A stretch of DNA of 64,000 bases from the NCBI GenBank assembly GCA_030272155.1, contig CP126206.1, forward strand, positions 806,001 to 870,000, given 5' to 3'. The first letter of the stretch is position 1. Each line of letters opens with the position of its first letter. This document shows positions 6,040-62,253 of the stretch, piece after piece. The position numbers and the translations under genes are program-made. The notes beneath the pieces were generated by a model, which was not told where the DNA came from, ran no database searches, and saw nothing but the letters and a program-made list of their open reading frames with translations. The stretch is from Tetradesmus obliquus (taxonomy: Eukaryota > Chlorophyta > Chlorophyceae > Sphaeropleales > Scenedesmaceae).

Positions 6040-6689
6040 GTGCAGCAGCACCGGTGGTACCACCCCTGGTTCTCTTGAAGATATTATACGTTTATGAATG
6101 ATGCAGGTAAATACATGCCATGTTCCTGGTGTGTGTCCTTACATACAACAAACATACAACACTGCTTACATGTACAGCAAACACGTGAGTGCACTCTCTG
6201 TAACTGGCACGTACAATGACACTTGCGGGCACAGCGCCTGCTTGCTCAGCAGGGTCAGCATGATGCAGCCGCTGCGGCTGCATCCGCACAGCTGTCACAG
6301 CTGCACGGTTCGGCACAGCTGCGTGGCAGCAGCAGCTGTGCGGCAGCAGCAGCAGCAGCGGCTGTGCACTGTCAGACCCTGCCGCACAGCTGTGCGGCAG
6401 CAGCAGCGGCTGTGCACTATTGCAGTGCTGGTAAATCTTTCCTTGCAGGAGCAGGCATGTTGCTGTATGGCACAAAAAACAACACCCGTGTTGCTGCAGC
6501 TGCATGCAGTAACAAGCTTGTCCTGCACACGGTTCAGCTGATACAGCTGCTGCATCACTTTTGTCTGTTTGCATATGGATCCACGCACTCGATGATGGCT
6601 GCAATCGCCATTTCCATGTGGCACGCAAGCACCCCCGCCTGCCGTTCAGACTCTGAACATATGATATGTACATGCCGCATGCACCCCCG

Positions 6690-6905
6690 CCTGCTGTGCA
6701 GATACCTACAGAGCACGATCATTACCGCCTGCTGTGCAGATATGTACAAAGCACGATCATTCCCACCTGCTGTGCAGCCATGTACAAAGCACGATTATTC
6801 CCGCCTGCTGTGCAGCCATGTACAAAGCACGATCATTACCGCCTGCTGTGCAGCCATGTACAAAGCACGATCATTCCCGCCTGCTGTGCAGCCATGTACG
6901 AGCCG
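6690..6905. repeat. 38-bp VNTR downstream of ALG14 copy 1
   Basis: Units containing CGCCTGCTGTGCAGCCATGT followed by ACAAAGCACGATCATT repeat about six times. The matching place in block copy 2 (about 51025-51085) has only about two units, so the array has changed length since the duplication. It lies about 140 bp or more past the ALG14 stop. I see no coding function. Confidence 0.85.
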
Positions 6906-7041
6906 CAAGCACCACCGCCTGCCGCTCAGAGTTGCACAAGCCGCCCAAAATGTGTCGATGACATGCGTGACAGCACATTGGCTGCCACATTCATCACGTG
7001 CCAGACAGATGTTCAACAGTGTGTGTATGCACTGACGGCAT

Positions 7042-9038
7042 TCAGTACAGTCTTCCTGCGTATATACTGCAAGGAAATCGGACCTGCAGCTCCGGCCACT
7101 GCACTAGGAACCTATCCACCATCCTGCCGTAGTAGAGGATCTTGCCTGACAGGCTCAACTTGCGCACTCGCGCAATGCTCTCCACATAGACAACCCTGCA
7201 GTCAAACAGCGCCAGCATCCTGCACCAGCAAACCGTGCAGCAAGCATTCAATGTACAAGCAAGAAGCAGAACAGGACAGACAGCTCAAGATGGGGCTTGC
7301 GGCGCGCTGGAATGCTGCGTTAGTGTAGCAGCAACAGCTTCAGGTGCTGTTGCAGCAGCCTATGCTAGCGAAGCGATGACAGTTCAAAGAAGAACATGGG
7401 GAGAAACGCAGTGTCTGCATAAGCATTGCTCAAGCATCCTGCAAGCCAGCATGCAAGAAGGCAGCAACAGGATGACCACCATAGGATGACAGCCACAGCG
7501 ATGCATGCATTACATCCGTCCTGACAGCGCAGCCCCGTATGAAAACCAGCAAATCAAAAGAAATAAGACTAAGGAAGCACACAACATTGGTGCGGTCAGC
7601 TGGTTGGACTTGCAGCACTCTTATTTTGCCGGCAGTCTTGCACCCTGTATCCTGACTTGCGAGCAAAGCTACACGACACATACTAATCCTGCTTGCACTG
7701 ACAGGCATATTTCTGGTGTACATACTAGAGGAGTGCTCTGGGGTGCCATGACCCAACATGCGAGGCCACCATGCAGGCTGCTTGCCCTGCTAGCCCACCT
7801 GTACAAGCACGCCATGGCACACACTGGCACACATGTACTTGGGCCATTCACCAGCACCTGCAGACACATGCAGAGAAATTGCACAATCAAGGGACTTCTG
7901 TACAACTGATCCCGCCACTCCCATTCTCCAAAATTCATTTTGTGTGAAATTGATCCCACAAAGCAGTACTTGATCGATAATATTGTGCCGCAGCACCACC
8001 CGCGCAGCACACAGCAGCGAGTACAGCACTCACAACTCTCTAGCCGGGACTTTTGTCGTACAGAACTCACCAGCTGTCGTACAGGACTCACCAGCTGGGG
8101 CTTGTGCCGCAGCACCACCCGCGCAGCAACCAGCAGCGAGTACAGTACTCCGAGCTCACTAGCCGAAGCTGTTGTCGTGCAGGACGCACCAACTGTCGTA
8201 CAGGACTCACCAGCTGGGGCTTGTGCCGCAGCCCCACCCGCGCAGCACACAGCAGCGAGTATAGCGCTCAGAACTCACTAGCCGAAGCTGTTGTCAGACA
8301 AAACACACCAGTTGTCGTACAGGGCTCACCAGCTGGGGCTTGTGCCGCTGCCCCACCCGCGCAGCACACAGCAGAGTTGCGAATAAAAAGCAGTTGATTT
8401 GGACTGTTGAAAAGCAGTGACAGCCAGTCGGCAGCTAACCCTTAAAAAAGGTGGCTCACCAGCTGGGGCTTGTGCCGCAGCACCACCCGGGCAGCACACA
8501 GCAGCGAGTACAAGGTGGAGAAGGCGGAGGTGAAGTACGACTGGCCCACCTCCCTGCCACGAGGGATCTGCTCAACTGACACATCTCCTGGGGTGTCCTG
8601 CAAGAGTAGTCACCAGGCAGAGCAAGCAGCAGCAGCAGCAGCAGAAGCAGCAGCAGTGGCACCCTGCCAGTGCTGAGCAGGACGCCCACCTCCCTGCCAC
8701 GAGGGATGCTTTCAACTGTTAGTGCCAAGGGCGGCCCCTGCTGACACAACAGCAACAGCAGCAGCAGCAACATGGACAACAACATCAGGGGCAGCACCAA
8801 GGTGGTGAAGGCGGAGGTGATGTACGACCGGCCCACCTCCCTGCCACGTGGGATTGCCTCAACTGTCAGTGCCACGGACGACCCCTGCTGACACAACAGC
8901 AACAGCAGCAGCAGCAACATGGATACAACACCAGGGGCAGCAGCAAGGTGGTGAAGGCAGAGGTGAAGTACGACTGGCCCACCTCCCTGCCACGAGGGAT
9001 CGTCTCAATTGTTAGTGCCACGGACGACCCCTGCTGAC

Positions 9039-9084
<46 letters not shown>

Positions 9085-9995
9085 GGGTTAGGTTGGGTTG
9101 TATTAGAGGGTTTAGTTTTAAACTCTAAACCCTAAAGCCAACAGCAGGAGGCGGCACATGTGCCAGTTGCAACGTGCTTGTAAGAGTGCTGCCACGGGCC
9201 ATGCCAACTGCCAGTGACAGGCAATCACTGCGGCATGGGTGCCACACTATAAGTATGTCTATCGCATGACCGTGCTACTGGACTGCGTGATCAGACCACT
9301 TGGAGCGCCAGAAGCCATCAAACAGGGGGGCTTCTGGTCCAGCATCGCATGCAGGTGCGCAGTGGTGCATTTACCATGCCTGAAACTGTCATTTTGCACG
9401 TTACACTACTGGTAGCCTCCCACTGGCCATTGCTAGCCTGCATTGCTGCAATGCAGCTGTTGAACAGCTGACCTACAGTCATATGCTAGGGGAGGGCTTA
9501 CATGTACAGCATGACTGTGTGCAGCTGTGCAGCTGTGCGACATGCTGGACTGCTGTGGGCTGCGGACGTGCCACTTTGTGGGGATGTTTGAGTGTCCTCA
9601 TCTGTAACCACTGCAGCAGGCGTGACTGCTGCTGCAAATATCCGCAAAATACTCTAGATAATTCTCTCTAGAAATCACCTTGCTGACAGCCCACTCTTGC
9701 TCCCTGCTGAGAGCTCTTGTGGCGCTCATGTGGTCCGTGTTTGCTGCAACATACACCCTGGGGCAGTAGAAGGCCCTGTCCATGCTTTCCAGCAGCATCA
9801 ACATCTCCGCTGTGTGCCCTCCTACAGTTTGCAACAATGTGCGTGTTGCTGAAGCAGATGCAATTCGTTATACTGCATCCTGCAGCCTCAGCGAGCCTTA
9901 TCAATCACGTGCAGAGAGCCTTTTTATCACATGCACTCACCAGACCCCAGCACGATCATGGTCTTCACAGGCCCGGTTGTTATGAATGGTTGCAT
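7042..9995 (-). CDS. ALG14: ALG14, membrane subunit of UDP-GlcNAc transferase (copy 1)
   Basis: Five minus-strand exons, 9995-9941, 9821-9679, 8597-8460, 7857-7799 and 7219-7042, sum to 573 nt with consistent phases and a single stop: 190 aa, the usual ALG14 size. Motifs in order: MIVLGSGGHTAEML (made across the exon 1-2 join), PRVYVAANTDHMSA, IPRGREVGQSYFTSAFSTL, LVNGPSTCVPVC, VVYVESIARV, LSLSGKILYY, FLVQWPEL, and the C-terminal SIYAGRLY. In the family, ALG14 anchors ALG13 to the cytosolic ER face, and the pair adds the second GlcNAc to dolichol-PP-GlcNAc. The N-terminus is short, so I see no strong separate anchor. Intron 2 holds three partial copies of the first half of exon 3, and intron 3 about four copies of its second half with donor. 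ALG13 lies 1.1 kb upstream on the same strand. Confidence 0.95.
7985..8400 (-). repeat. Echo copies of the 3' half of ALG14 exon 3 plus donor site
   Basis: About four units of roughly 120 bp, each reading on the minus strand as YSLL-AARVVLRHKPQL followed by a GTGAGCC donor, lie downstream of the true exon end at 8460. Starts are visible near 7988, 8088, 8208 and 8328. They lie in intron 3 and each keeps the exon's terminal codons and 5' splice site. Block copy 2 has the same arrangement with fewer units (52455-52730). Confidence 0.9.
8660..9040 (-). repeat. Echo copies of the 5' half of ALG14 exon 3
   Basis: Three units of about 135-145 bp in intron 2 each encode IPRGREVG plus part of SYFTSAFTTL on the minus strand (DNA landmark CTCCCTGCCACGAGGGAT at about 8690, 8838 with one change, and 8981). 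Each is preceded by a CAG-type acceptor and followed by CTG-rich sequence. The true exon 3 at 8597-8460 is the only copy that continues into the second half of the exon. Confidence 0.9.
9082..9136. repeat. Telomere-like TTTAGGG/CCCTAAA palindromic island
   Basis: GGGTTAGG and GAGGGTTTAG are followed within about 15 bp by CTCTAAACCCTAAA, giving a short head-to-head telomere-like palindrome in ALG14 intron 2. The same island is in block copy 2 (about 53425-53495), with a slightly longer left side. It suggests a plant-type TTTAGGG telomere repeat in this organism, or may simply be a degenerate palindrome. Confidence 0.6.
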
Positions 9996-11092: not shown

Positions 11093-12739
11093 CTATACAC
11101 ACTCATCGCCAGCTGCTGCTGATCTGCCCATAAGTTGATCCAGCAGCTCAGCTATGCCACAAGCAGCCTTTGCAGGGAAGGGTTTTAGCTGCATGCAGTC
11201 CAGGCTGGCCACAGCTGACAGCAGCCCCTCAGGCGTAGTGCTGATCTGCAGCAACGGCAGCAGCAGTGGCAGCAGCAGCAGCAGATGTGTTGCAGGGAAG
11301 GGTTTGAGCTGCGTGGAGCCCAGGCTGGCCACAGCTGACAGCAGCTGGTCAGGCGTAGTGCTGATCTGCAGCAACGGCAGCAGCAGTGGCAGCAGCAGCA
11401 GCAGATGTGTTGCAGGGAAGGGTTTGAGCTGCGTGGTGCCCAGCTGGCCACAGCTGATGGCAGCTGGTCAGGCGTAGTGCTGATCTGCAGCAACGGCAGC
11501 AGCAGTGGCAGCAGCAGCAGCAGATGTGTTGCAGAGAACGCTTTGCAAGGGTTCTTAGCTGCATGGAGCCCAGGCTGGCCACAGCTGACAGCAGCTGGTC
11601 AGGCGTAGTGCTGATGTACAACAGCAGCAGCAGTGGCAGCAGCAGCAGCAGCAGCAGAAGCAGCAGCAAGCATCTACTCACAAGCTGCCACAAGCTCCAG
11701 GCACTGCTGGTCAAACATCAGTCAGCAAGCATCGGCTTTATCCCCAGCGTGCACAGGCAGCCTTCGCATCAAGTTCACTAGCCGGACCAGAGTACAGCGC
11801 CTTACCACCACCTGCATGGATGCCAGATGATCTGCCAGCTCAGCATCCAAGCGACACATCCGCACTGCTGATGAAGCACGGGTAAGCAAGCATCTACTCC
11901 CAAGCTGCCGCAAGCAAGCATCTACTCCCAAGCTGTCGCAAGCTCCAGGCACTGCTGGTAAAGCAATACAATACAATACAATACAGTACACTTTCGGGAC
12001 TGAACCCGCCCCCAGGCACTAGCCCAGCGAGCCGCTAATCCGCTCATGGGGGGTAGTAGTAATTGTACTTAGTCTTTCCTTCGTTGTTTGGGCATCGAAA
12101 CCACCCGCGCAAGTCCGTCAATTCCAGTTGCTTTTTATCCCCAGCCACGGGCCATAGTCGCAAGCTTTTTAGGCCCAGCCACGGGCGGTTGGACCAGGAT
12201 TCGAACCAGCATCAGCCAGCAAGCATCATCTTCTATCCCCAGCGCCCAAGGGTAGCCTTCAGATCAAATACACCAGCAAAACCTGCTTCAAGCGCCTCAC
12301 CACGACCTGCATGGATGCCAGATGATCTGCCAGCTCAGCTTGATGGTTGTCCATCATCAGAGGGTTGGCCACCACGATCAACGGCTTTTGCGCCAGCAGC
12401 GCTTCAAACACACTGCCAGCACCTAGCAGCACACAACAGCAGCGGCATCCATGGGGTTGGCCACCACGATCAATGGCTTCTGCGCCAGCAGTGCTTCAAA
12501 CACACTGCCAGCACCTAGCAGCACACAGCAGCAGCAGCAGCCATGGTCAGTGCTCGGCACATGCAGCAGCGCATGAGCAAGGCTCTCCTTGGCCAGCATT
12601 GCTTCAGGGTGCGCAGCCTTGCATTCAAGGTGTAAACTGCTTGTGTCTACATCATGGATCATCATGATGCGGCTGCCTGCAGCAGCGACCGTGGTCTCTT
12701 ACAGCCCCCACAGCTCACCTGCATGACAGACAGCGTTGT

Positions 12740-12817
<78 letters not shown>

Positions 12818-13000
12818 GCCTAAGCTTATCGCCCCTCCAGCTCACCTGCATGACAGACAGCATCACTATGCTGCTGCTGCTGCTGCCTCATCAGCCCCCA
12901 CAGCTCACCTGCATGACAGACAGCATTACTCTGCTGCTGCTGCTGCAGCTGCTGCTGCCTCGTCAGCCCCCACAGCTCACCTGCATGACAGACATCATGT

Positions 13001-13049
<49 letters not shown>

Positions 13050-13097
13050 TCGTCAGCCCCCACAGCTCACCTGCATGACAGACAGCGTTATTAAGCA

Positions 13098-13163
<66 letters not shown>

Positions 13164-13281
13164 GCCTAAGCTTATCGCCGCTCCAGCTCACCTGCATGCC
13201 AGACAGCATTACTATGCTGCTGCTGCTGCTGCTGCCTCGGCAACCCCCACAGCTCACCTGCATGACAGACAGCGTTACTAA

Positions 13282-13317
<36 letters not shown>

Positions 13318-14021
13318 TCGTCACCCCCACAGCTTACCTGCATGGCTGATGACGAGGCCCGCTGAGGACATGTACGCAGCCAGACTTGGGCAGAAGTCAA
13401 AGTACCTGAGGGCAACAACACCAACAAGGATTACCATCACCGGCTGATTGGCAAGTCCATTGCCAGGGACCGTGAACATTAGTATTATTACTGCTGGCGG
13501 CAATGGATTTGCTGGAAGTCGTGCATTTTTGACTTTGGCATCAGTGCCAATACATCCGGCTCCAGGCGAGCTGATGTTTTGGCTGGACAAACAGATGCAC
13601 AAAGAAACCACGTTTTTAAAAAGATCGGCTGTGGCAATGTCTGTACGTTGGAAGCGACAGTGCATTGCAATGGTGTAAGGATATGCTTTATATCCTCTGC
13701 ATGTTTTGATTGCAACCTGGCTAGCATGCTGCTGCTGCAGTGCGTGCCCTAAACACCAGCAAACTTTGCACACTCACGTAACCCGCGCGCCACTGGTATG
13801 TATTAACTGACAACTCACTCAACAGATACAGGCACCACGCGACAAAACACTCAACCCACACTCACTCAACGCACACGCCACTGGCATGCTGTGCTGCGGT
13901 TGTGCCGGCAGGCACCAGCTGACACGGCACGTATTTGCCTGCGCCCTTCTGTATCATCAGCCGCGTGTAACCCTTGGCTGCCAGTGCTGCTGCAAATTCA
14001 GGCCTGTCTACTGCTCTGCGC

Positions 14022-26860: not shown

Positions 26861-28061
26861 GCAGCGGCAGGAAGGTGGGTGAGTTTGCGCATGTGGCGTA
26901 TGCATGCAGGGCTGCAGTGTGCTGGCAATGCGGCAGTTGCGCCCACCTGCAGCGAAGCTCAGTCACACAGCCCGGCACAGTCAAATGCTTGGTCAGTGCA
27001 CGGTCAAAGCACGGTCAATGCGCGGTCATTGCGCGGTCAATGCACGGCTGACGCACAGTCGATGCCCCAGCCATGCTCACCTGCTTTGTCTCAGCCACAT
27101 GCAGCTCGTAGCATTCCCTGCACTGGTTGCTGCTGCGCCCACGCAGCTTCGCAGCCACTGCAGTCCAATTGCGCCCGTGCGGCTACACATGTGGTGCACA
27201 CCAGTGCACACCAGCCATGCCCACCTGCTTCTTCTTGGCCACATGCAGCTCATAGCATCCCTTGCACTGGTCAGCTGTATACACACTGTTCACACACAGC
27301 ATCTTGAACAAAACACATCCAGTGCACAACAGCCATGCTCACCTGCTTCTGCTCAGCCACATGCAGCTCGTAGCACTCCCTGAACTGCTTGCTGCTGCGC
27401 CCACGTAGCTTCGCAGCCACGGCAGGCCAATTGTGCCCATGCTGCGCCACCAGCTTTAGCAGCTTGCCCTGCTCAGCAGCAGACCAGGGCTCAGAATCAG
27501 GCAGCTGCGGCGGCGGCGGCGCCACCAGCTTCAGTGACTTGCTGTACTTAGCAAGAGACCAGGGCTGAGACGCAGGCAGCAGCTGCTGCTGCTGCAGCGG
27601 CCGGCTGCTGCCACCTGCAGCAGCAGCAGCAGCAGGGTGGCTGCTGTGCCTGTCAGCATTGCCAGCTTCTGCTTCGCAGCCAGTCAGGCGTGTTGAACAA
27701 AGTGGCAGAGGGGCATCAAAGCCTGCAGCCTGCTGCTGGTGCGCCTCCACTGCTGCTGCTGCTGCTGCTGCTGCTGCCGGCACTGCAGCGGCAGCAGCAG
27801 CGGCATCCTGCTGCTCGTCTGCCTCTGTCACCAGGTGCTGCTCACATGCCGGCACTGCTGCTGCTGCTGCCGCGAGGGCCTCAGCAGGCGTCACGCTGTG
27901 CTGCCGAATGCAGCAGCAATATGTCCGCAGAAAGCGGCTGGTGACACGCGAAGCGCTGCTTGCGCCTAGCCAGCGGTTTTTCACACAAGCCTGAGAGCGC
28001 CCAGGCAGCGCTGCGGCAATGTGGTTCCACCTGCACATGCAGGGAGACGCGTGAGGATGCA

Positions 28062-28342: not shown

Positions 28343-30251
28343 GCAACAGCAGCAGCGGCAGCAGCAGGACGAATAGGTAAGCATGTGCCTGATGTTGCAT
28401 GCATGCAGAGCTGCACTGTGGTGGGGTTGCAGCCATGCAACACTCCCACTAATTGGCGCTTTGGTAATCCAGGCTGCGCTGTTGCAGCTGACCGCACAGG
28501 ATCACTCTGTCAATCTAAATTGATTTCCAGCTGCTGGGAAACACACGCAACACAACACAACCAACACAAGCAGCAGCTGCAGTGTGTTGGTGTTGCAGCA
28601 TTGAGACCCTCACCAATGCAGAGCTGCTAGACCACACAATCTTGTCACCAAGCTTGTCACCCATCTTGTCACAACCTTTTGACAACCTTGTTAGCGCACA
28701 CGGCAGGACTCGACAGCACTCGGCAGCTATACACTCGCCGGCACGCTGTGTCATTCTTGTCACAAGCATACACACACAGCACATGTCATGTGCACCCATA
28801 AAACCCATCTTGCACACCAGCACACCAGCCGCACGCACCTGCTTCGTCTTGGTCACATGCAGCGCATGGCGGCCCCTGCACTGCCTGCGGTCCCGCCCAG
28901 GCATCTCGGCAGCCACGCTAGGCCAGTGGCAGCCGTGCTGCGCTATATGCACTTACCGGCACACCGCAACATCCTCGTCACAAGCATACACAAACAGCGC
29001 ATGTCAAGTGCGCCCATAAAACCCATCTTGCACACCAGCACACCAGCCGCACGCACCTGCTTCGTCTTGGTCACATGCAGCGCATAGCGGCCCCTGCACT
29101 GCCTGCGGTCCCGCCCAGGCATCTCGGCAGCCACGCTAGGCCAGTGGCAGCCGTGCTGCGCCACCAGCGCCAGCAGCCGCTCATCCTCCGCGGCGGACCA
29201 GTGCTGACGCTGCTGCCGCTGCCGCTCCTGCTGCTGCCGCTGCTGCTGCTGCTGCTGCCGGATGCCCCGCACTGCGCGTGTGCGGCGTCGCTGACGGCGC
29301 AGCGTGTTTGAAGCAGCCTCGTCACTCTGCTCGTGATCCTCGCTGTCATCATCATCCGCTGCTGCCGATGAGTGATTTGAGTCCTCACTCGATGCCCCTT
29401 TTGCGCGGAATTCCTGCTGCTGCTGCTGCTGGAGTGCGTTGTCTGCGCTTTCAGCCATCGGCGCATTCAGGCAGGCGTGTCTGCTGCTACTGGCAACGGC
29501 GTCAGCAGCAGCAGCAGTAGCGGGTGCAGCTGCTGCTGCAGGGGTGCTCTGCTGCGCCTGTGTTGCAGGCAGCATGAGCTGACTGGGCAAGCCTGCACGC
29601 TGCCGCCGCTTGCCCATGCTGTTGGGCCTGGCAGCTGCTGCTGCTGCAGCTGCTGCTGGGTGGTGCATTTCGGGCGCAGCTGCTGCTGTGAAGTCTAGCT
29701 GCAGGTTGTAGGCAGCTGGGGCTGATGGTGTAGCGGCAGCAGCAGCAGCAGCAGCAGCATCCCAGGACATGGTGTGAGGCATGCCTGGTGCTGCTGCTGC
29801 ACCTCCCCACTGGTACTGCTGCTGCTGATGTTGCTGATGCAGCTGCCACACCTGATGCTGCTGAGAGTGCCGCTGTGCAAATGCTGGACAGTCCTGGTCC
29901 TGCTGCAGCACCTGCTGCTGCTGCTGCTGCTGCCAGTCTGGCTCTGCTGCTGCAGCCTCCTGCATGTTATGACTGTCACCTGCTGCGCCTGGCTCTGGGC
30001 TAGCCTGCTCAACAGTCTGCTCTGGCTGGGCACCTGCGCGCCCAGCCTGCAGCTCACTCAGCTGCTGCTGCTGCTGCTGCTGTTCTGCGATTGCCCTCAG
30101 CATCTTCCCATGCGGGTTCAGTGTGCAGTCCTGCCCTCGCTGCTGCTGCTGCTGCTGCTGCTGCAGCGGCAGCAATCGTACTGCTTGCTGCTGGGGTTGC
30201 CCTGCCGGGGCCTGTTGCTGGGAAGGTGCGATGTGGATGTGTGCATCTGGC
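24658..30251 (-). CDS. Four-repeat MYB-like DNA-binding protein (SNAPC4/MYB4R-type arrangement)
   Basis: Five minus-strand exons join in phase: about 30251-29057, 28304-28243, 28030-27343, 26813-26755 and 26416-24658, about 1250 aa. Four MYB repeats: WSAAEDERLLALVAQHGCHW with PSVAAEMPGRDRRQCRGR; GWTLTEDFRLASLHAQLGSR joined by splicing to WNHIAAALPGRSQACVKNRW; WSAAEQGKLLKLVAQHGHNW with PAVAAKLRGRSSKQFREC; and WTLTEDFRMASMHARLGN joined to NWVKIAAAIPGRS. Repeats 3-4 with the following linker (AEALAAAV-KVPA and similar) copy repeats 1-2 plus linker, so the gene arose by internal duplication. The remainder is polyGln/polyAla. The first exon's true start is uncertain: the frame is open to an acceptor near 30251 and no initiator was fixed. 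Expected role: nuclear DNA binding, perhaps snRNA-type promoter or general transcription. Target is inference. Confidence 0.86.
26500..26680. repeat. 10-11 bp tandem repeat (GTCAATGCAC) in MYB gene intron 4
   Basis: Units of CAGTCAATGCA/CGGTCAATGCA repeat about 15 times with small changes between exons 4 and 5. A related shorter array lies in the preceding intron at about 26985-27062, so the same motif has spread in two neighbouring introns. Confidence 0.9.
27095..27265 (-). repeat. Echo copies of the MYB repeat 3 exon 3' end
   Basis: Two partial copies downstream of the true exon end at 27343 encode AAKLRGRSSNQCRECYELHV and a shorter ELHVAKKKQ, each followed by a GTGAGC or GTGGGC donor. They lie in intron 3. 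Confidence 0.85.
28838..28955 (-). repeat. Echo copy of the MYB repeat 1 exon 3' end
   Basis: This stretch repeats almost exactly the end of exon 1 (AQHGCHWPSVAAEMPGRDRR through HVTKTKQ and the GTGCGTGCGG donor), about 210 bp downstream of the true donor at 29056. It would compete as a splice donor if its own upstream sequence were exonic. Confidence 0.88.
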
Positions 30252-39728: not shown

Positions 39729-42356
39729 GCGTTGCTGCGGCAACATTTCATGCCTGAGACTGCTGCAGCAGCGCACTAGCCTGCAACCTGAAAGCAATTC
39801 TGTCATCAATGAACACGCCAGCTGCATCAACTGCATGCAGTAGGCACCCTGCCGCTTCTCATCTGTGACATCACAGACCTCAAAATAGACGCGCGACAGG
39901 TGTTGCTGGTGGCCACAGTACACGCCAGCTACGCGTTATGATCAGGGCAGGTACTCAACTGTTATCTGACCCCATTGCCAACTGTAACCGTCCTGCGCTG
40001 CTGCTGCCTGTGCAGTGTCTAACACTGTTGCTGACGCTGACGCCATTGCTACGCTAATCCTCATGAGCGGAGTATCGGCTCGCTGGGCTTGTGTCTGAGG
40101 GAGGTTTCAATCCTCAAAGTTTTGTATTGTATTGTATGGCTGTTGCTGCTGCTGGCAGGACGAGGACATACCAATGTGGAGGGCGGAGGTCCGTGTCATC
40201 GGCGACCTGCCCACGCTGCCGCCAGCAGTAGCAGCAGCAGCAGCACATGCCATGACAAGCTCCCAGGAGCGCAGCCAGACCATCTCTGTGCTGAACGTCA
40301 GCTTTTCATACACGTGAGTCGCCTGGCGTGCTGCAGCAGCAGCGGCAGCGCAGCGGCAGCGGCGGGCACCAGCCGCCTGTTGATGGTGAAGTGCGTGCTT
40401 GCAGCAGCACAACAGGCAGGCAGGATGGAGCATGTGATGCCATCAAGCAGAGTAATGTTGCAGCAGCTGCAGCCGTCACGTATGCTCCAGCAGTCATGCA
40501 GCAGCCCCGCAGGCAGGCCATGATCATCCAACACGCCGCGCTGTTTGTTACAAATAAAGCCATAGCGTCATCGCCATCAGCCCCGCGCCCCACAGACAGG
40601 GCATGATGAAACATGCCCAGAACTGAAGAGATGGATCAAGCCAGCAGGCTAGGCAGGCCAGGCCAGCAAGCAAGCAGTGCAGACAGGTGTGCCGGCCGGC
40701 AACAGCAGCAGCAGCAGGCAGCAGCAGGCAGTGCAGACAGGTGTGCCGGCCCGCGGCAGCAGCAGCAGCAGCAGCAGCAGGCAGTGCAGACAGGTGTGCC
40801 CGCGGGCAGCAGCAACTAGCCGTGTCTGTGCTGGTTGAGTATGCGTCGCTCTTTCAATACAATAGCAAGCACAAGGAGTGAAAAGGGATCCTCTTCAGCG
40901 GCTGCGTGGCGTGATGCCGTCCTGCTGTAATGCTGCCAAACAATCACTGCTTCATCATGTCGTGATTATTGCAGGTCAAGTGAGGATCTGCAGAGTGCAG
41001 TGCAGCAGGTGGTGGCTAGTGTGGAACAGGGCCAGCTGCTGCATAGTGTGATGCCGTCCTGCTTTCTTGCTGCCAAAGTGATGTTCATCGTGTGTTGATT
41101 GCAGGTCAAGTCAGGATCTGCATAGTGCAGTGCAGCAGGTCGTGGCCAGTGTGGAACAGGGCCAGCTGCTGCCAAGTGACATCACCCCGGGCCTGCTTCA
41201 ACAGGTGAGGTGTGCGGCATTTTGCCAAGATGTCTGTAAATCTTTTTTAAATCACCACTCAGCACAGCACAGCACAGCACTCTCAGCACAGCACAGCACA
41301 CTCAGCACAGCACAGCACAGCCCAGCCGGTGTCAACACCAAAGGCAGTGCATGTAATTGTGTGCAGATGTCACTAAACTTGGCAGAGAAGCTGACCTTTC
41401 CACAAGCACCGTGCCGCAGCCATCTGCCTGTGTCGGCTGCACGCGGCAGGCATATGCGCACTGGCAATTAACCACCAGTCGATCTGCGCATACGCATTTC
41501 AAGCGAGCAGCTTTCACAGATCTTGCCGAAATGCGCTGTACCATGTGATACATGACATCGTGCCGTTGACATGTCACACAACATCATGTTGTGCATGATG
41601 CTGCATGCTGCTATGGTAGGAGGCGTGGAGGCGCATGGGGTATCCTCATCGCCACATACGTCCCCTTCCTTAACTCACGCAGGTGTATGAACACACCACG
41701 CGTAGCTCAACCATTCATTAATACATGCATGCCGCATGCAGGTGATGCACACGCGCGATGTTTGTAACGTGTCACATGCAGGTGATGCACACGCGCGATG
41801 TTTGTAACGTGTCACATGCAGGTGATGCACACGCGCGATGTTTGTAACGTGTCACATGCAGGTGATGCACACGCGCGATGTTTGTAACGTGTCACATGCA
41901 GGTGATGCACACGCGCGATGTTTGTAACGTGTCACATGCAGGTGATGCACACGCGCGATGTTTGTAACGTGTCACATGCAGGTGATGCACACGCGCGATT
42001 GCCCGCCAGTGGACCTGCTCATCCGCACGTCAGGCGAGCAGCGCCTATCTGACTTCCTGCTGTGGCAGAGCAGTTATGCGCTGCTGCACTGGGAGCGCTG
42101 CCTCTGGCCGGAGTTTGGGTATGCGCAGCTGCTGCGAGCCCTGTTGGCATGGCAGACTGCTGCTGCAGAGCTGCTGCTGCTGAAGCAGGCCGCAGGCAGG
42201 GCCACGCAGCACCTGTGGGGGCAGCCACCATGCCAAGAGGAGGGCAGCGTCGAGCAGCAAGCCAGCACAAACTTGGTCATTGCCAGCAGCAGCAGCAGCA
42301 GCAGCTGGCGGGAGATTCGTCAAGCGGCATGCAGCTGCGTGTTGCCAGCTTCTTAG
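38300..42356 (+). CDS. Cis-prenyltransferase (dehydrodolichyl diphosphate synthase type)
   Basis: Five plus-strand exons: first ending at 38537 (start not fixed; frame open from about 38187, no ATG), then 39087-39233, 40159-40313, 41105-41204 and 41982-42356, all in phase. Motifs in order: [20 protein letters not shown] (the catalytic DGNRR loop), GHYLGNKK joined to [52 protein letters not shown], and [20 protein letters not shown] with LWPEF. Human DHDDS shows the same spacing across the first join. The enzyme condenses isopentenyl diphosphate in cis to long polyprenyl diphosphate for dolichol, at the ER with a NUS1-type partner; a plastid paralogue making shorter chains is possible. An Ala/Ser-rich tail follows the core. 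Exon 4 has a truncated echo at 40975, and exon 5 starts after six 40-bp copies of its own acceptor. Confidence 0.92.
39690..39730. repeat. (CAG)n tract in cis-prenyltransferase intron 2
   Basis: A run of about 12 CAG units with flanking C-runs (39594-39603). The intron, 39234-40158, also contains a mirrored segment: GTCGCTGACCCCCGG/CCGGGGGTCAGC words occur on both strands (39469-39480 and 39636-39646). Confidence 0.75.
40060..40136 (+). mobile_element. SINE-like 3' end in cis-prenyltransferase intron 2
   Basis: CATGAGCGGAGTATCGGCTC, GCTGGGC, a B-box-like GGTTTCAATCC and a TTGTATTGTATTG tail match the minus-strand element at 11964-12055. It lies about 20 bp before the exon 3 acceptor at 40158. 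Confidence 0.6.
40970..41100 (+). repeat. Echo of cis-prenyltransferase exon 4
   Basis: From 40975 a GCAG acceptor and [20 protein letters not shown] codons repeat the first two thirds of the true exon (41105), then diverge into GATGCCGTCC sequence; the two copies are about 130 bp apart. Only the second copy continues into [11 protein letters not shown] and a donor. Confidence 0.9.
41741..41981 (+). repeat. 40-bp minisatellite copying the exon 5 acceptor
   Basis: Six near-perfect 40-bp units, each GTGATGCACACGCGCGATGT then TTGTAACGTGTCACATGCAG, end exactly at the true exon 5 start (41982), which begins with the same GTGATGCACACGCGCGAT before departing to TGCCCGCC. Every unit offers an identical CATGCAG acceptor and the exon's first six codons. 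Confidence 0.97.
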
Positions 42357-49021: not shown

Positions 49022-49039
49022 GTGAGGTGGGGAGTGGGT

Positions 49040-49482: not shown

Positions 49483-49665
49483 TGGGATGTGTGCTGTGTG
49501 CTGCTCAGCTGAGAATGCTGAGCTGTCACTGCTCTGGCGGCTGCTGTGTGCGCGGCACACACGTAGCCTGCCCGCTTCTGGCCCAACCTCACTCATTGCT
49601 GGCATGTCTGTTGTTATGTTAAGTCAGGATGGGGATATTGTAACACACCTAAGGCAATCATGATC
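49483..49665. repeat. DIRS 183-bp direct repeat, second copy
   Basis: Second copy of the terminal repeat. The 260 bp between the copies are unique and could be the B segment of an A-B-A-B split-repeat layout. Confidence 0.9.
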
Positions 49666-51233: not shown

Positions 51234-53390
51234 TCAATACAGTCTTCCTGCATATATACTGCGAGGAAATCGGACCTGCAGCTCTGGCCACTGTACCAGG
51301 AACCTATCCACCATCCTGCCATAGTAAAGGATCTTGCCTGATAGGCTCAGCTTGCGCACTCGCGCAATGCTTTCCACATAAACAACCCTGCAGTCAAACA
51401 GCGCCAGCATCCTGCAGCAAGACATACGGGCAGCATTTACAGCACAAGCAAACCAGTCACTGCAGGACAACAGACAGCTCAGGTTGGGGCTTGCGGCGCG
51501 CTGGGATGCTGTGTCAGTGTAGCAGCGATAGCTTCAGGCGCTGCTGTTGCAGCAGCAGCCTGTGTCAGCTAAGCGTGGACAGTTCCAAAAAAAAACATGG
51601 GGAGAAACGCAGTGTCTGCATATGACATGTCTCCATTGCTGAAGCATCCAGCAAGCCAGCATGCATGAAGGCAGCAACAGGATGACCACCATAGGATGAC
51701 AGTCACAACGATGCATGCATTACATCCGTCCTGACAGCGCAGCCCCGTATGAAAACCGACAAGTTGCAAGAAACAAGTTGCAAGAAACAAGACTGAGGAA
51801 ACACACAAGATTGGTGCGGGCAGCTGGTTCAACTTGCAGCACTCTTATTTGCCGGCAGTGCCGCATCCTGTATCCCGACTTTCAATCACAGCTACACAAC
51901 ACATACGAATGCTGCTTGCACTAGACAGGCATACTGGAGGAGTGCTCTGGGGTGCAATAACCCAACATGCGAGGCGATCATGCCCTGCTAGCGCACCTGT
52001 ACAAGCACGCCATGGCACACACAGGCACACAAGTACTGGGGCCATTCACCAGCACCTGCAGACACATGAAGAAAAATGGCAGGATCAGGGGAAATCAGTA
52101 CAATGTACTGATCCCACCACACCCATTTGCCAAAGTTAGGTTTGTGTGAAACTGATCCCACAAAGCAGTATATAATCTTCTGTATATGATCAATGCGCCT
52201 GCTGCAGGCATGCGGGGCGCGGGTGGCCCACCAGCCGAGGCATTGTGAGGGGTAGTTGCAGACTGGCTTTCACTGCTTCATCAACGAATTGTACATTACA
52301 CCATGTTACTTGCTTGCTGTAAGTAGTGTTACACGTGAGCTCGCTGTAGCAGGTGGCTCACCAGCTGAGGCTTGAGTTGCAAATAAAAAAAACCTAGAGT
52401 CGGGTTGTTGAAAAGCATTGACAGCCAGTCGGCAACCAAACCCTCACAAAGAGTGGCGCACCAGCTGGTGAGGTTTGTGCCGCTGCACCACCCGCGCAGC
52501 AAACAGCAACGAGTGCAGTACTCAGAGCTCACTAGCCGAAGCTTTTGTCGTACAGGGCTCACCAGCTGGGGCTTGTGCCGCAGCCCCATCCGCGCAGCGC
52601 ACAGCAGCGAGTACAGCGCTCAGAACTCACTAGCCGAAGCTGTTGTCAGACAAAACACACCAGTTGTCGTACAGGGCTCACCAGCTGGGGCTTGTGCCGC
52701 AGCCCCACCCGCGCAGCACACAGCAGAGTTGCGAATAAAAAGCAGTTGATTTGGACTGTTGAAAAGCAGTGACAGCCAGTCGGCAGCTAACCCTTAAAAA
52801 AGGTGGCTCACCAGCTGGGGCTTGTGCCGCAGCACCACCCGGGCAGCACACAGCAGCGAGTACAAGGTGGAGAAGGCGGAGGTGAAGTACGACTGGCCCA
52901 CCTCCCTGCCACGAGGGATCTGCTCAACTGACACATCTCCTGGGGTGTCCTGCAAGAGTAGTCACCAGGCAGAGCAAGCAGCAGCAGCAGCAGCAGAAGC
53001 AGCAGCAGTGGCACCCTGCCAGTGCTGAGCAGGACGCCCACCTCCCTGCCACGAGGGATGCTTTCAACTGTTAGTGCCAAGGGCGGCCCCTGCTGACACA
53101 ACAGCAACAGCAGCAGCAGCAACATGGACAACAACATCAGGGGCAGCACCAAGGTGGTGAAGGCGGAGGTGATGTACGACCGGCCCACCTCCCTGCCACG
53201 TGGGATTGCCTCAACTGTCAGTGCCACGGACCACCCCTGCTGACACAACAGCAACAGCAGCAGCAGCAACATGGATACAACACCAGGGGCAGCAGCAAGG
53301 TGGTGAAGGCAGAGGTGAAGTACGACTGGCCCAACTCCCTGCCACGAGGGATCGTCTCAATTGTTAGTGCCACGGACGACCCCTGCTGAC

Positions 53391-55463: not shown

Positions 55464-56321
55464 TTACACACACTCATCACCCGCTGCTGCAGATCTGCCC
55501 ATCAGCTGATCCAGCAGTTTAGCTATGCCACATGCAGCCTTTGCAGGAAAGGGCTTGAGTTGCATGGAGCCCAGGCTGGCCACAGCTGACAGCAGCCCCT
55601 CAGGCGAAGTGCTGATCTACAGCAACGGCAGCAGCAGTGACAGCAGCAGCAGCAGCAGGTGTGTTGCATACAACGGTTTGCAAGGGTTTTAGTTGCATAG
55701 AGCCCAGGTTGGCTACAGCTGACAGCAGCCCCTCAGGCGTAGTGCTGATCTAAAGCAGCGGCAGCAGCAGTGGCAGCAGCAGCAGCAGCAGCAGCAGATG
55801 TGTTGCAGAGCACGCTTTGCAGGAAAGGTCTTTAGCTGCATGGAGCCCAGGCTGGCCACAGCTGACAGCAGCCCCTCAGGCGAAGTGCTGATCTACAGCA
55901 GCGGCAGCAGCAGTGGCAGCAGCAGCAGCAGCAGCAGATGTGTTGCAGAGCACGCTTTGCAGGCAAGGTCTTTAGCTGCATGGAGCCCAGGCTGGCTACA
56001 GCTGACAGCAGCTGGTCAGGCGAAGTGCTGATCTGCAGCAACGACAGCAGCAGTGGCAGCAGCAGCAGCAGCAGATGTGTTGCAGAGAACAGTTTGCAGG
56101 GAAGGGTTTTAGCTGCATGGAGCCCAGGCTGGCCACAGCTGACAGCAGCCCCCTCAGGCGACGTGCTGATCTACAGCAGCAGTAGCAGCAGCAGTGGCAG
56201 CAGCAGCAGATGTGTTGCAGAGAACGCTTTGCAAGGGTTTGAGCTGCATGCAGCCCAGGGTGGCTACAGCTGATAGCAGCTGGGCAGGCGTAGTGCTGAT
56301 CTACAGCAACGGCAGCAGCAG

Positions 56322-56372: not shown

Positions 56373-57353
56373 CAGCAGCAGGTGCACTTCAGCACACGGT
56401 TTGCAAGGTCATGATGCAACGCATTGTGGATGCCATCCAGGGAACACACCACTTTGCATCCAGCAGTCGAGCATTGCATGGCTGCTTCAAAAAAAGTCCA
56501 ATGCAGGACATAAACAATGCATTCTGGATGGCCGTCCTACGCCTGATTGTTTGTCACGGTGTCACCAGCTCCAGGAGCTATCGGTGATTGTGGCGCAATG
56601 CACAGCACACTGCTACCCTCTTTGAGCAATGTGCAAGAGCTTGTTTGCTGCAGCTAGTGCTGCCAACATCACAACACTGCAGAGCGAAGCATGCTATTCT
56701 AGCGACAGAGCTGCACTGAAGCTGTCACAAGGTCCTGGCACTGCTGTAGAGCATCAGTCAGCAAGCATCTGCTTGTATTCCCAGCGTGCACGGGCAGTCT
56801 TCGCATCAGGTTTACCAGCCGGACCAGCGTACAGCGCCCAAGGGTAGCCTTACGCATCAGTTTTACCAGCAAAGCCAGCTTAAGGCGCCTTACCACGACC
56901 TGCATGGATGTCAGATGGTCTGCCAGCTCAGCCTGATGGTTGTCCATCATCAGCGGTTGGTCATCAGACTACCCACTGAGCATAGCAACAAACCCATGGG
57001 CATAGCAACAAACCCAGTGGCCACTGGCCCCACTGAGCATAGCAACTACGCCACTGGCCCCAATGAGCACAGCAACAACGCCACTGGCCCCAACAACGCC
57101 ACTGGCCCCGCTCACCACGACCTGCATGGATGCCAAGTGATCTGCCAGCTCAGCCTGATGGTTGTCCATCATCAGCGGGTTGGCCACCACAATCAACGGC
57201 TTCTGCGCCAGCAGCGCTTCAAACACACTGCCAGCACCTAGCAGCACACAACAGCAGCCGCAGCCACTTCCTGGTTCAGCGGGGTGGCCACCGCGATACA
57301 TGGCTTTTGTGCCAGCAGCGCTTCAAACACAATACCAGTACCTAGCAGCAATC

Positions 57354-57387
<34 letters not shown>

Positions 57388-57474
57388 ACCTCTGAGTTCA
57401 GCGGGTTGGCCACCAAGATATATGGCTTCTGCGCCAGCAACGCCTCAAACACACTGCCAGCACCTGCCAGCACA

Positions 57475-57536
<62 letters not shown>

Positions 57537-57715
57537 ACTTCCTAGTTCAGCGGGGTGGCCACCACGATCAAAGGCTTTTGCGCCATCAGCGCTTCAAACA
57601 CACTGCCAGCACCTAGCAGCACACAACAGCAGCCGCAGCCATGGGGTTAGTAACAACGATCAATGGCTTGTGCGCCAGCAGCGCTTCAAACACACTGCCA
57701 GCACCTGCCAGCACA

Positions 57716-57752
<37 letters not shown>

Positions 57753-58254
57753 TACTTTTGAGTTCAGCGGGTTGGCCACCACAATAAATGGCTTTTGCGC
57801 CAGCAGCGCTTCAAACACACTCCCAGCACCTAGCAGCACACAACAGCAGCAGGAGCCATGGGGTTAGCCACCACGATCAATGGCTTCTGCGCCAGCAGCG
57901 CCTCAAACACACTCCCAGCAACTAGCAGCACACAACAGCAGCCGCAGCCATGGTAAGTGCTCGGCACATGCAGCAGCTTTTAGGCGAGGCTCTCCTAGGC
58001 CAGAATTGCTTCGAAGCAATAAAACCTAATACTTAGCCAAGCATTGCTTCGAAGCAATAAGCCTCAACCCTGAATTCAGGGTGCGCAGCCTTGCATTCAA
58101 GGTGTAAACAGCTTGTTCTACAGGCGGCTGCCTGCAGCAGCCACGGCCGCTGTCACCTACAGCCTAAGGCATTGACTTCACTCAAACGCTACCACCAGCC
58201 CCAGCCAGTGTAAAGCTGCATATGCCAGCTGTGGACACTTCTAGCAGTGCTGCG

Positions 58255-58570: not shown

Positions 58571-58603
<33 letters not shown>

Positions 58604-58648: not shown

Positions 58649-58710
<62 letters not shown>

Positions 58711-58755
58711 TAACCTTATTGCCCCCACAGCTCACCTGCGTGACATACTGCGTTA

Positions 58756-58813
<58 letters not shown>

Positions 58814-59596
58814 TCGTCACCCCCCCCTCCCCCGCCAGATCACCTGCATGACAGACACCATTACTATGCTGCTGTTGCTGCTGCTGCTGTTGCCTCGTCA
58901 CCCCCCACAGCTCACCTGCATGGCTGATGACAAGGGCCGCTGAGGAGATGTACGCAGCCAGACTTGGGCAGAAGTCAAAGTACCTGATGGCAACAACACC
59001 AACAAGGATTGCCATAACCGACTGGTGAGGGACCATGAATACTGCTGGCGGCAATGGGTTTGCTGGAAGTTGCATGCAGTTTTGACTCACGCATCATTGC
59101 CTAAGTATGTACATCCTGCTCCAGGCGAGCTATGCAGCTTGCCTGCTGCTGATGTTTGGGCTTGACAAACAGATGCACAAGAAACCACATTCGAAAATGC
59201 TCCGCTGTGACAATGTCTGTGCGTTGTAAGCAAAGGTGCACTGCAAATGGTGTAAGGGTATGCTTTACACTGCTCTGCATGCAGTGCGTGCCCTGCGACA
59301 CCAGCACACTCACTCAACCCACACGCCACTGGCATGCTGTGCTGCGGTTGTGCCGGCAGGCAGCAGCTGACAACTCACTCAAATGAGACAGGCACCAATC
59401 AGCAACACACTGAACCCACACTCACTCGACCCACACTCACTCAACCCACACGCCACTGGCATGCTGTGCTGCGGTTGTGCCGGCAGGAACCAGCTGGCAT
59501 GGCACATATTTGCCAGCGCCCTTCTGTATTATCAGCCGTGTGTAGTCCTTGGCTGCCAGTGCTGCTGCAAACTCAGGCCTGTCTACTGCTCTGCGC

Positions 59597-59634
<38 letters not shown>

Positions 59635-60267
59635 CCAAAAGCATGCTTTATGCAGCATCTGAGGCTGGCATCATACCCCAGTGAATGCCTGGCACATGGC
59701 AGGCAGGGGCTGCCGTGCCAGGCACGGCACGCTGTAGCGCACATCAGCTTGCTTGCTTGCTTGCTTGCTTGTGGCATGGCAGGCAGGGCTGCACATGGCA
59801 GGCTGACACGGCACATGGCAGGCACATGGCAGGCGGGGCTGCACATAGCAGCCCTGCCGTGTCAGGCAGCATTGCTGTACAGCATTTCCAGCAGAGCCTG
59901 TGCATCGGCTGCTGCTTGGCGCCAGGGTGAGGAAGCTTACACCGCACTTGTCTCCTGTCGGTAAGAAGCAACACATCTACTGCTGACTGTGACCGTGCTG
60001 CAGCAAAAAGCAGGTCACATGCAAGCAAGCTGGCTGTGCGCTACAGTGCAGTTGTGCTTTTACCATGCCTAAAACTGTCATATTACAGCGTGCTGCTACT
60101 CACCTGATCAAGGCCTCAAACTTTGATGTGCCGACGGTGACAAAGACAGTGCGCCTTTTGGCTGCCTCATCCTGCTGCTGCTGCTGCCCCCTCTGCTGCT
60201 CCGCTGATGCACGGCTTTCGCCCGAATTGCTGCTAGCTGCACTATCCTTGGCGGCCTCATCCATCAT
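55464..60267 (-). CDS. ALG13: ALG13, catalytic subunit of UDP-GlcNAc transferase (copy 2)
   Basis: Exons 60267-60104, 59590-59441, 58983-58916, 57237-57116 and 55616-55464 join in phase to 657 nt: 218 aa. Exons 2-5 have the same lengths as in copy 1 (150, 68, 122, 153 nt). Motifs [53 protein letters not shown] and [13 protein letters not shown] are intact. Exon 1 is 93 nt longer: between MMDEAAK and a second DEAAK lies a Ser/Gln-rich insert ending in QQQQ. This is either expansion here or loss in copy 1. The stop is TAA against TAG in copy 1. Introns 3 and 4 are swollen by echo copies of exons 3, 4 and 5. Same reaction as copy 1, with ALG14 as membrane partner. Confidence 0.94.
55617..56395 (-). 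repeat. Echo copies of ALG13 exon 5 5' half (copy 2)
   Basis: Five further starts of exon 5 ([14 protein letters not shown] or ISTTPAQ forms, minus strand) lie at about 55748, 55891, 56031, 56169 and 56299, each with a CTG-rich tract and a TGTAG or CTGCAG acceptor. Copy 1 has three. The outermost ends in (CAG)n at about 56323-56378. Confidence 0.9.
57238..57960 (-). repeat. Expanded echo array of ALG13 exon 4 (copy 2)
   Basis: Six extra copies of the exon 4 start (landmark GCGCTTCAAACACACTGCCA or CCTCAAACACA at about 57323, 57446, 57592, 57691, 57812 and 57902) each keep the acceptor and [10 protein letters not shown] codons and are separated by (CAG)n runs (57358-57385, 57479-57535, 57719-57752). 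Copy 1 has one. The 3' end of the exon is also echoed at 56890-56965. Confidence 0.92.
58251..58912 (-). repeat. CTG arrays with echoes of the ALG13 exon 3 donor (copy 2)
   Basis: The CAGCTCACCTGC-type donor unit occurs three times (about 58618, 58728, 58840) before the real one at 58910, separated by (CTG)n tracts at 58255-58285, 58576-58604, 58650-58709 and 58760-58812. Confidence 0.9.
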
Positions 60268-62253
60268 TGCTGTTTAATTAACATACGTTCATATGCTGCA
60301 GGGGCAGGCTCACAGCACCCTAGTATGTCTACTGCAGCACAGGGGGTGCTGCCACACTGCAGCAGCAGCTGGTGCTGTGGAAGATGACACCAAGAACACC
60401 ACCACAGGTGCTACCCAAGGGGTTGGAAATAATTAAGGCAGAGGACACATCAATAAGTCAGCACCTATCTACGCAGGGGTAGTGTGGGTTTGCAAGGCAA
60501 GACTGTTTTGTGATGGGAAGGCCTTGACAGTGTGAAGGGACTCCCTTGCCTACGACTGCTGTGCTGGTGTGTTGCTGCTTAACTGCGCTTGAAAATATCA
60601 ACCCCAAAGCAGCAAGGAATAATCAGGGTTGAGCTTGAAACAATGGTGCGGCCCTCAGGTCCTATCTTCCGAACAGAACAGCCCGTGGCGTGGTTCGCAC
60701 ACATACGGCAGTGTACAGCACGTATGCCTGGCATGTCAGCATCAAAAAGTGCAATACTGTAAAAGCTGATGTTATAGGCAAGACACACTGGGGCCGTTCG
60801 CCCATGTTTCATGCACCGGTACCGGCACTGCCTTCCCCGGGTGACAAGCCTGCGTTGCAGCGTATGCTGGTGAACAGTGCATAAAAATGATTCACCGCAG
60901 ATTATGCGGAAAACTACATATTTATCTGGCGCTGCTTGCTGCATCACGGGAGCAACACTAGCCAGGGGTCACCCCTGAGGGGTGCAGATCGAGGCCATGC
61001 AATGAAGCTGGGGGCACTTTTGCAGTCACGTACTTTGTAAAGCCTTTGACCAGCTGCAGGCTGCACACCACACAGCATCACTGGCGCCCCGCTCTGGTTG
61101 ACCTTCCTGCCTCTGCATGTTGTGCTGTCAGCAGTTGTCGATTTTCCAGTTTCTGTCAAGGGCATGTTGCATGTGGTGGGTGTCGCAGCGCTGGTTTCTC
61201 AGCTCTTTCCTCCGTGCTGCATGTTTCTGTCCTTGTCAGCAGTGAGGATTGCAGAAGCAGCAGAGCCCTAGTTTGCCTTAGTTTGCCTTAGTTTGCTTTG
61301 ATTTGCCTGTCGGTCGTACACCGCGTCAGTTATGCATGCTCCTGCTTGCTGCAGTCTGGTGAGTACAGCAGTGCCTTGATGCAATCATGCCAGACATTTA
61401 TGGTGAGCAGCACCTTTGTGCACCCCGCTTGCTGTTTGGACTATGCTTGTCCTTCCCTGTGCGCTTTCTGCCTGGTGCGTGGAGCACATGCTGCTTTTCG
61501 TGCTGCATTTCGCACTTGCTGCCCTGCATGTACATGTTCGTTTATGGGGAGATAGAGGCTGCGAGACGCCTCTGGAGTTTTCTTTGGTGGCGTCTTGTGG
61601 CTTGCTATCGAGTTCATACGATATGTGAGCTGAAAGTAGGGCAAGTGACTCACTCTCGGGTGATAGCTTGCCTTCTCCTGTAACAAGCCTCTCTCTCTCT
61701 CAAGCAGTTTAGCATGCCATTGAACTGTTGATTTACAGTGACAGTGACAGTGGATGCGTGCAATCGCATGCTCATGTGTACATCAACCAGACTGCCACTG
61801 GCACTGGCGAAGTTTGCTGGCAGCACTGCTGCTGGTGGGTGACCCACGCCGCCTCCACCCGCGCTGTGCCTGCAGTGATCCTGTACACAATCACAAGCTT
61901 TGCTGGAACCCAACGGCACGTGGTATTCTTTGAAGTGTATCCAGACAAATTTACGCAGTAAATGCAAGGCTTTGCACATTCAAGCAAAGCAGTACAATAT
62001 CCTGGCTTTGTATCAAAATCGTTATTTTTACAATATACATTCACTGTGAAATCCTGTCCTGTTACACATCTCCAGGACTGCCACCGTCAACTATCAGTGA
62101 CTGCTTCAACACCAGCCAATGCTGCATACTCACTTCACCAACCACCATCACCATCGTCCACACTTTGTAACTGCAGGTGCCCTTGAAGTTTGGGCAGCGC
62201 CAACCAGCTGCCCGCTCAGCCGCCGGCATGCTGGCCAGAGCGCCAGCAGCTGT
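60268..62253. other. Upstream part of block copy 2, with copy-specific segment
   Basis: Alignable to 14450-15605, except that about 0.84 kb at about 60955-61790 has no counterpart there. That segment has TTAGTTTGCC repeats near 61272-61306 and no recognised gene; its edges show no clear terminal repeats. As in copy 1, a minus-strand stretch reads PAKLVIVYRITAGTARVEAA, and another (62060-62250) reads AGALASMPAAERAAGWRCPN. A conserved but unidentified exon is possible. Confidence 0.4.

Follow-up and report, generated by a model that had tools for sequence, protein, structure and literature searches.

Exon edges with their splice sites recur in neighbouring introns of Tetradesmus obliquus, in a pattern consistent with tandem duplication across exon-intron junctions

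Why should the end of an exon, complete with its splice site, recur several times in the intron beside it? This question is raised by a 64,000-nucleotide stretch of the green alga Tetradesmus obliquus (contig C16, positions 806001-870000, in a genome of 104.7 Mb and 17 contigs), hereafter the window, which carries ALG14 and ALG13 in each of two segmental duplicates (A, ~6.4-15.6 kb; B, 50.7-62.3 kb; identity 72-94% by piece) as well as a cis-prenyltransferase (CPT) gene, a MYB gene and a VTE6-type DUF92 gene. The original prediction, made from the letters of the window, held that almost every gene here has copies of its exon ends in adjacent introns, commonly separated by CAG/CTG tracts, and proposed triplet-hairpin template switching or a splicing-coupled process as the cause. 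We use the term echo for a copy of an exon edge plus its splice signal in the neighbouring intron or flank. Exon-edge echoes are a real feature and are not confined to the window. As to their origin, we give a little better than an even chance to tandem duplications that span the junction, with the exon part held similar through exchange with the exon under selection as the intron parts drift.

Single-exon peptides from relatives of ALG14, ALG13 and CPT, searched with tblastn, matched the true exons and adjoining partial copies in the introns, and the copying of exon ends with their splice sites was confirmed at both protein and DNA level (Table 1). The echo peptides span one exon end, e.g. 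residues 6-29 or 29-46 of the 46 in ALG14 exon 4, which differs from whole-exon tandem duplication, where each copy retains both ends; in the array before CPT exon 5, each 40-bp unit comprises the acceptor and 19 exonic bases. Copy number differs between A and B, which are gene duplicates and not strains, with 1 vs. 6 acceptor-side echoes for ALG13 exon 4 and 3 vs. 5 for exon 5, while peptide searches found no counterpart in duplicate A of the donor-side echo of ALG13-B exon 2. Also on C16, another CPT gene (CPT2, locus L029) is echoed on both sides of exon 2, on the donor side of exon 3 and, at exons 4 and 5, on the acceptor side. The reach claimed for the pattern was nevertheless too wide: 1) no coding-frame echo matches came from the paralogues of ALG14 (C1), ALG13 (C2) and CPT (C1), the last having been queried with CPT2 peptides only; 2) the VTE5 and AP2-type genes said to show echoes were not recovered, as neither the 7 matches to CTP_transf_1 (PF01148), which we take to be the family expected for VTE5, nor the 13 to AP2 (PF00847) fall inside the window; and 3) the CTG-rich array read as an echo of ALG13 exon 3 (12665-13344) has, by eye, only ~7 exonic bases in common with the true exon end of ALG13-A.

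Outside the window, we sampled 20 chunks of 10 kb (200 kb) on contigs C1-C10, 19 of them at fixed round positions and one (L009) picked for its ALG14 paralogue. A gene-finding hidden Markov model (HMM), self-trained on 283 kb, yielded 257 exons, 202 with a good coding score, and splice signals close to CAG/GTGNG for donors and TGCAG/G for acceptors (the stroke marks the junction); exons scoring 8 or below were excluded from the junctions and edges counted. With the exon side counted alone, 46 of 302 edges in these other contigs are echoed, compared with 0/302 for decoys; these edges are spread over 13 of the 20 chunks, from nine of the ten contigs. The same rule gave 8/19 edges in the window and 5/9 in L029, and since the 12 of 359 edges dropped for lack of GT/AG were all curated window or L029 edges with approximate boundaries, 8/19 is a low estimate. 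A copy crossing the junction within 1.5 kb was present at 29 of 244 predicted junctions in the chunks (decoys against unrelated chunks, 0/244 and 0/400), and a spanning copy at 207/3343 intron, 105/1379 exon-interior and 49/1591 other control positions. The comparison of exon edges with intron positions that had been called for thus shows an excess overall (1.92, confidence interval [CI] 1.14-3.12) but one that drops to 1.41 (CI 0.45-3.13) without chunks L017, L018 and L024. Minisatellites cover 13% of the window vs. a mean of ~6% in the 20 chunks, showing that the window is rich but not unique. A search for the DEAD-helicase family (35 matches) revealed no partial double matches by eye, indicating that echoes at the protein level are too uncommon to show there.

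The placement of the echoes points to tandem origin. With 1.5 kb searched on both sides, 64 of 66 donor echoes lay downstream of the true donor and 43 of 50 acceptor echoes upstream of the true acceptor, which is the geometry expected of tandem duplication across the junction. The intron flank past position +10 was homologous in 26 of the 50 nearest echoes (2% level, swapped-partner control; L018, a glycine-rich protein repeat, was left out of this test as well as of the edge-coverage profile and its ratio). The offsets of junction repeats had a median of 142 (29 events, 28 of them between 68 and 276), close to the 137 of intron repeats. Homology of the spacer was absent in 27/50 exon-echo pairs vs. 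9/50 intron-intron pairs, counts that rest on a test like the one against shuffles that produced 12 false positives among 81 in a control.

If echoes arise as ordinary repeats do, what makes the exon edge stand out? At 287 edges, repeats cover 11-13% of the last 40 exon bases and 10% of the first 10 intron bases, falling to 3-4% at intron positions 10-100; exon-edge cover is 3.67 times that at these intron positions (CI 2.5-5.2). Deeper in long introns the cover climbs again, to 5.5% at 100-200 and 9.5% at 200-400, the all-intron mean being 4.1%. Young copies, with at least 20 on both sides, were found at 7/244 junctions vs. 88/3343 intron positions (ratio 1.09, CI 0.40-2.56, on few young events), so that the birth of echoes shows no clear excess at exon edges; old one-sided copies were found at 18/244 vs. 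91/3343 (ratio 2.71, CI 1.37-4.26). Echoes could be read as ordinary minisatellites, i.e. random junction-spanning duplications followed by neutral decay, in which exon parts appear better kept because the exon template is conserved. The tandem geometry, the homologous flanks and the lack of a clear birth excess agree with such a reading, and so do the differences between the ALG14 duplicates A and B at 8150-9880 (4/339 sites in echoes vs. 25/1092 in other intron, or 14/1066 once one microsatellite is removed, and 0/279 in exons) and over the whole aligned stretch (25/425 in echoes vs. 155/1810 elsewhere). When random tandem duplications were simulated under neutral decay, with exon and splice site held under constraint, however, the exon edge reached only ~0.8 of the nearby intron and no step appeared. 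This simulation was a simple one (it modelled the donor side alone, with a single duplication at each locus, ages spread uniformly up to 0.6 substitutions per site, indels at 0.10 per substitution and no growth of arrays), and on its profile we rejected purely neutral minisatellites; in this respect the earlier remark that slippage alone would not be expected to stop at exon edges was fair. A 51-base exon end copied unchanged in L027, without detectable flank homology, and the mosaic exon/echo copies described below also speak against ordinary minisatellites, an explanation we consider unlikely: neutral decay by itself leaves part of the pattern unexplained.

The missing part may be exchange. 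Three of six exon/echo arrays failed the four-gamete test: in ALG13 exon 5, with true exons and echoes of both duplicates taken together, 35 of 66 informative pairs conflicted (mean in tree-like simulations 0.042; the observed level was reached in 0.7% of runs), in ALG13 exon 4 5/15 pairs (0.3% of simulations) and in CPT2 exon 2 2/3 pairs (2.7%). These conflicts suggest that the copies, the true exon among them, have undergone conversion or unequal exchange, which would explain how the exon part stays alike while the flanks diverge. We favor the following sequence of events. Short local tandem duplications, with offsets mostly of ~70-280 bp, would arise randomly along genes. Should one straddle an exon-intron junction, whichever copy stays attached to the exon body would remain exon and the other would become an intronic echo with its own splice site, the outermost splice sites presumably being the ones used. 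Selection on the exon slot would leave exon and echo with a near-identical stretch, in which gene conversion or unequal exchange could be anchored, renewing the exon part and adding or removing copies; the intron parts, no longer similar, would diverge until the echo resembles the exon edge alone. In this scheme the tandem geometry, the flank homology of about half of the echoes, the mosaic copies in some arrays and the absence of a clear birth excess are observed, and conversion is the presumed renewing step.

Several points weigh against duplication followed by exchange: 1) in 24 of the 50 nearest echoes (5 of them weak) no flank homology was detected at the 2% level, leaving tandem origin unproven for those; 2) no conflict was seen in the ALG14 acceptor array (0/10 pairs), the ALG14 donor array (0/1) or CPT2 exon 4 (0/1), of which the two with a single pair have little power, the arrays had been selected after inspection, and one three-base change in ALG13 exon 5 was scored as three sites; 3) the shared exon stretch (~20-90 bp) is a short one for classical gene conversion; 4) exon models outside the window, and that of CPT2, are predictions of the self-trained HMM; 5) the distribution is patchy, with 28 of the 46 echoed edges in chunks L024, L017 and L027; and 6) exon-echo differences at 57 independent edges fall 39:37:114 by codon position (of 989, 991 and 977 sites), a third-position ratio of 3.04 (CI 2.08-4.34; P[ratio<=2]=0.013), where we would expect no more than ~2 from an echo evolving neutrally next to an exon under constraint. 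The independent edges replace a pooled count (58:70:200 in 93 pairs) that re-counted shared exon changes. Conversion alone does not predict a third-position excess, while exchange with diverged alleles might; the excess could come from such exchange, from missed true exons or from real use of echoes.

Real use is the next possibility to be weighed, with echoes serving as alternative splice sites or mini-exons under purifying selection. Besides the third-position bias just given, changes private to echoes run 20:25:41 by codon position overall, with 3:2:13 of these from CPT2. Two public gene models lend themselves to the same interpretation: P0121, for ALG14 of T. obliquus, contains in-frame 16-residue segments matching intronic echoes of the window, and P0001 (OEZ86_010430, for the gene in L029, and probably a truncated model of CPT2) ends in VMHTRECR, as expected if the last exon's first 22-bp echo had supplied the acceptor. 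Models of this kind can be prediction errors, however, and the repeats in P0121 may be either such an error or exonised echoes; the model also hints at copy-number differences between strains. Three other public models (P0002, P0122 and P0155) have no echo segments. In the window, private changes are evenly distributed (9:10:11), suggesting that window echoes are neutral, and on this evenness we rejected echoes as conserved exons. Splice dinucleotides are intact in 45/66 donor and 42/50 acceptor echoes, and their loss in the remaining 21 and 8 again argues against purifying selection, making functional echoes improbable as a general explanation.

Direct copying of exon edges as such into the adjacent intron, by transcription- or splicing-coupled repair or from an RNA template, would account for similarity that stops sharply ~10 bases beyond the edge, for the 24 nearest echoes without flank homology and for the case in L027, in which it was the last 51 exon bases that were copied. 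Young copies should then favor exon edges, which they do not clearly do, and copies would not be expected almost exclusively on the tandem side; in addition, the 6-19 matching intron bases carried by several echoes mean that mature mRNA was not the template. In L017 (~5410-5590), the 3' flank of a glutamate-cysteine ligase gene holds an echo of its final coding exon, stop codon included; what is copied is a coding end and no splice site, and the boundary there follows coding constraint and not splicing. Together with the homologous flanks and the young copies, this tells against the splicing-coupled process first proposed. The other proposed cause, triplet-hairpin template switching, is unsupported because CAG-type tracts are not enriched at echoes (6/60 echoed edges vs. 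237/1190 without echo), though the tracts that had been noticed between copies do occur in several ALG13 and ALG14 arrays of the window. Direct copying may apply to echoes without flank homology, yet as an account of the whole it is very unlikely. Only a little less doubtful is a broader view of constant two-way exchange between exon edges and their intronic copies, in which introns store variants of exon ends that return to the exon by recombination, and in which some of the copies stem from an edge-starting, transcription- or RNA-linked process and not from random duplication. An artefact of assembly or mis-annotation, for which one may cite the HMM-predicted edges outside the window and in L029, is barely credible given that many copies differ by several percent, that P0121, a T. 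obliquus protein from a source other than the window's own models, also contains the ALG14 echo peptide VALTVEAIPRGRE, and that clear Pfam domains (E1_dh, GCS2, mTERF, Tra1_ring and Mannosyl_trans3) are present in five hand-chosen predicted genes that have an echoed edge.

Table 1. True exons and their echoes in the window (window coordinates; TRF, Tandem Repeats Finder)
Feature	Position	Strand	Basis
ALG14-A exon 4, true exon	8460..8597	-	tblastn with C1 paralogue exon; PF08660 match
ALG14-A exon 4, three acceptor-side echoes (8639-8731, 8765-8869, 8944-9015); TRF period 146	8639..9015	-	TRF, peptide search
ALG14-A exon 4, donor-side echoes, three by protein and four by DNA (starts ~7983, 8087, 8206, 8323); TRF period 119	7983..8374	-	TRF, peptide and DNA
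ALG14-B exon 4, true exon	52812..52949	-	PF08660 match, peptide search
ALG14-B exon 4, three acceptor-side echoes	52991..53367	-	peptide search
ALG14-B exon 4, three donor-side echoes	52471..52729	-	peptide search
ALG13-A exon 4, true exon	12301..12420	-	peptide search
ALG13-A exon 4, one acceptor-side echo	12450..12512; donor-side echo 11806-11844	-	peptide search
ALG13-A exon 5, true exon	11129..11233	-	peptide search
ALG13-A exon 5, three acceptor-side echoes	11291..11603	-	peptide search, tandem repeats
ALG13-B exon 4, true exon	57116..57235	-	peptide search
ALG13-B exon 4, six acceptor-side echoes	57277..57919; donor-side echo 56894-56956	-	peptide search, tandem repeats
ALG13-B exon 5, true exon	55500..55607	-	peptide search
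ALG13-B exon 5, five acceptor-side echoes, mosaic with true exon	55684..56288	-	peptide search, four-gamete test
ALG13-B exon 2, donor-side echo (true exon 59443-59589)	59316..59378	-	peptide search
CPT exon 4, one acceptor-side echo (true exon 41106-41204)	40976..41041	+	peptide search
40-bp tandem array, 6.6 copies, 100% identical, ending in CPT exon 5 start (41982-)	41735..41999	+	
218-bp tandem duplication (97%) of MYB-repeat exon end with donor	28759..29161	-	
Second MYB exon end, nearby repeat copies (27068-27176 vs. 27330-27438; 27201-27257 vs. 27319-27375)	27068..27438	-	

Identity between A and B is uneven along the segmental duplication and reaches ~98% at 8150-9880, as though pieces had recently been homogenised. 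Near the DUF92 gene, a 35-bp copy (97%) at 47264-47298 and 47395-47429 resembles a minus-strand exon end with its donor. Two other regions of the window have features of mobile elements. Direct repeats of 723 bp, 100% identical (19550-20272 and 23831-24553), bracket a 3.6-kb stretch with a weak, below-cut-off DDE_3 match on the minus strand (21522-22079), and the whole looks like a young mobile element. The region 47419-49665 holds an open reading frame with a sub-threshold RNase H match of the reverse transcriptase type, followed by a long one with only a sub-threshold IS66 C-terminal match, and contains direct repeats 443 bp apart; it is possibly a retroelement, the second reading frame being recombinase-like on our own reading only.

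With about one in seven sampled exon edges having an intronic look-alike, many introns of this alga contain near-copies of splice sites. The echoes offer a natural setting in which to study how the spliceosome chooses among near-identical sites, and they bear on whether exons evolve in concert with intronic copies and on the lengthening of introns; among the mean intron lengths of 230, 302, 462, 284 and 270 bp tabulated in one comparison, 462 bp is that of T. obliquus if the columns follow the order given in the title of the table (PMC5966456). There is also a caution for gene finders, as the public model P0001 seems to have adopted an echo acceptor. Among the open-licence papers listed by our literature searches, we recognised none describing genome-wide exon-edge echoes in algae, which is weak evidence of novelty.

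Similar arrangements are known elsewhere. Echoes match their own exon, where introner-type elements would be dispersed related introns in many genes. In intron gain by tandem genomic duplication (PMC3443670, PMC4974935), copied splice-like sites are likewise put in a gene, but there the duplication makes the intron, whereas the C1 paralogue of ALG14 exon 4 aligns end to end over 138 nt, with matching exon ends and no echoes, so that an intron created by duplication does not fit this exon. Internal tandem repeats in human segmental-duplication genes, as summarised in PMC2812944, reflect minisatellite expansion, some of it at exon-intron boundaries and changing gene structure; those repeats lengthen coding repeats or may create introns, while the algal copies sit in pre-existing introns. 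The closest parallels come from human CBS (PMC2630376, PMC5188458). Its 31-bp variable number tandem repeat, c.1444_1467+7(16_21), by its name comprises the final 24 exon bases and 7 intron bases, at the exon 13/intron 13 boundary in 16-21 copies; as in the alga, the unit crosses the boundary head-to-tail, and copy number varies in CBS. The algal arrays belong with this type, in which head-to-tail units extend across a splice junction, by virtue of their tandem-side placement, the homologous flanks in 26 of the 50 nearest echoes and the perfect array before CPT exon 5. CBS is one locus in one gene, however, whereas the alga has degraded, spaced and mosaic copies at donors as well as acceptors, with 46 of the 302 edges sampled being echoed. 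CBS also has a 68-bp duplication across an intron/exon junction that yields two splice sites, of which the distal one is favored, and gene conversion has been discussed for the locus; it is a single insertion allele as opposed to serial arrays, yet both are junction-spanning duplications. Junction-spanning tandem duplication is thus known from isolated cases, and what is new in the alga, as far as we have seen, is its prevalence and the exchange between exon and echo.

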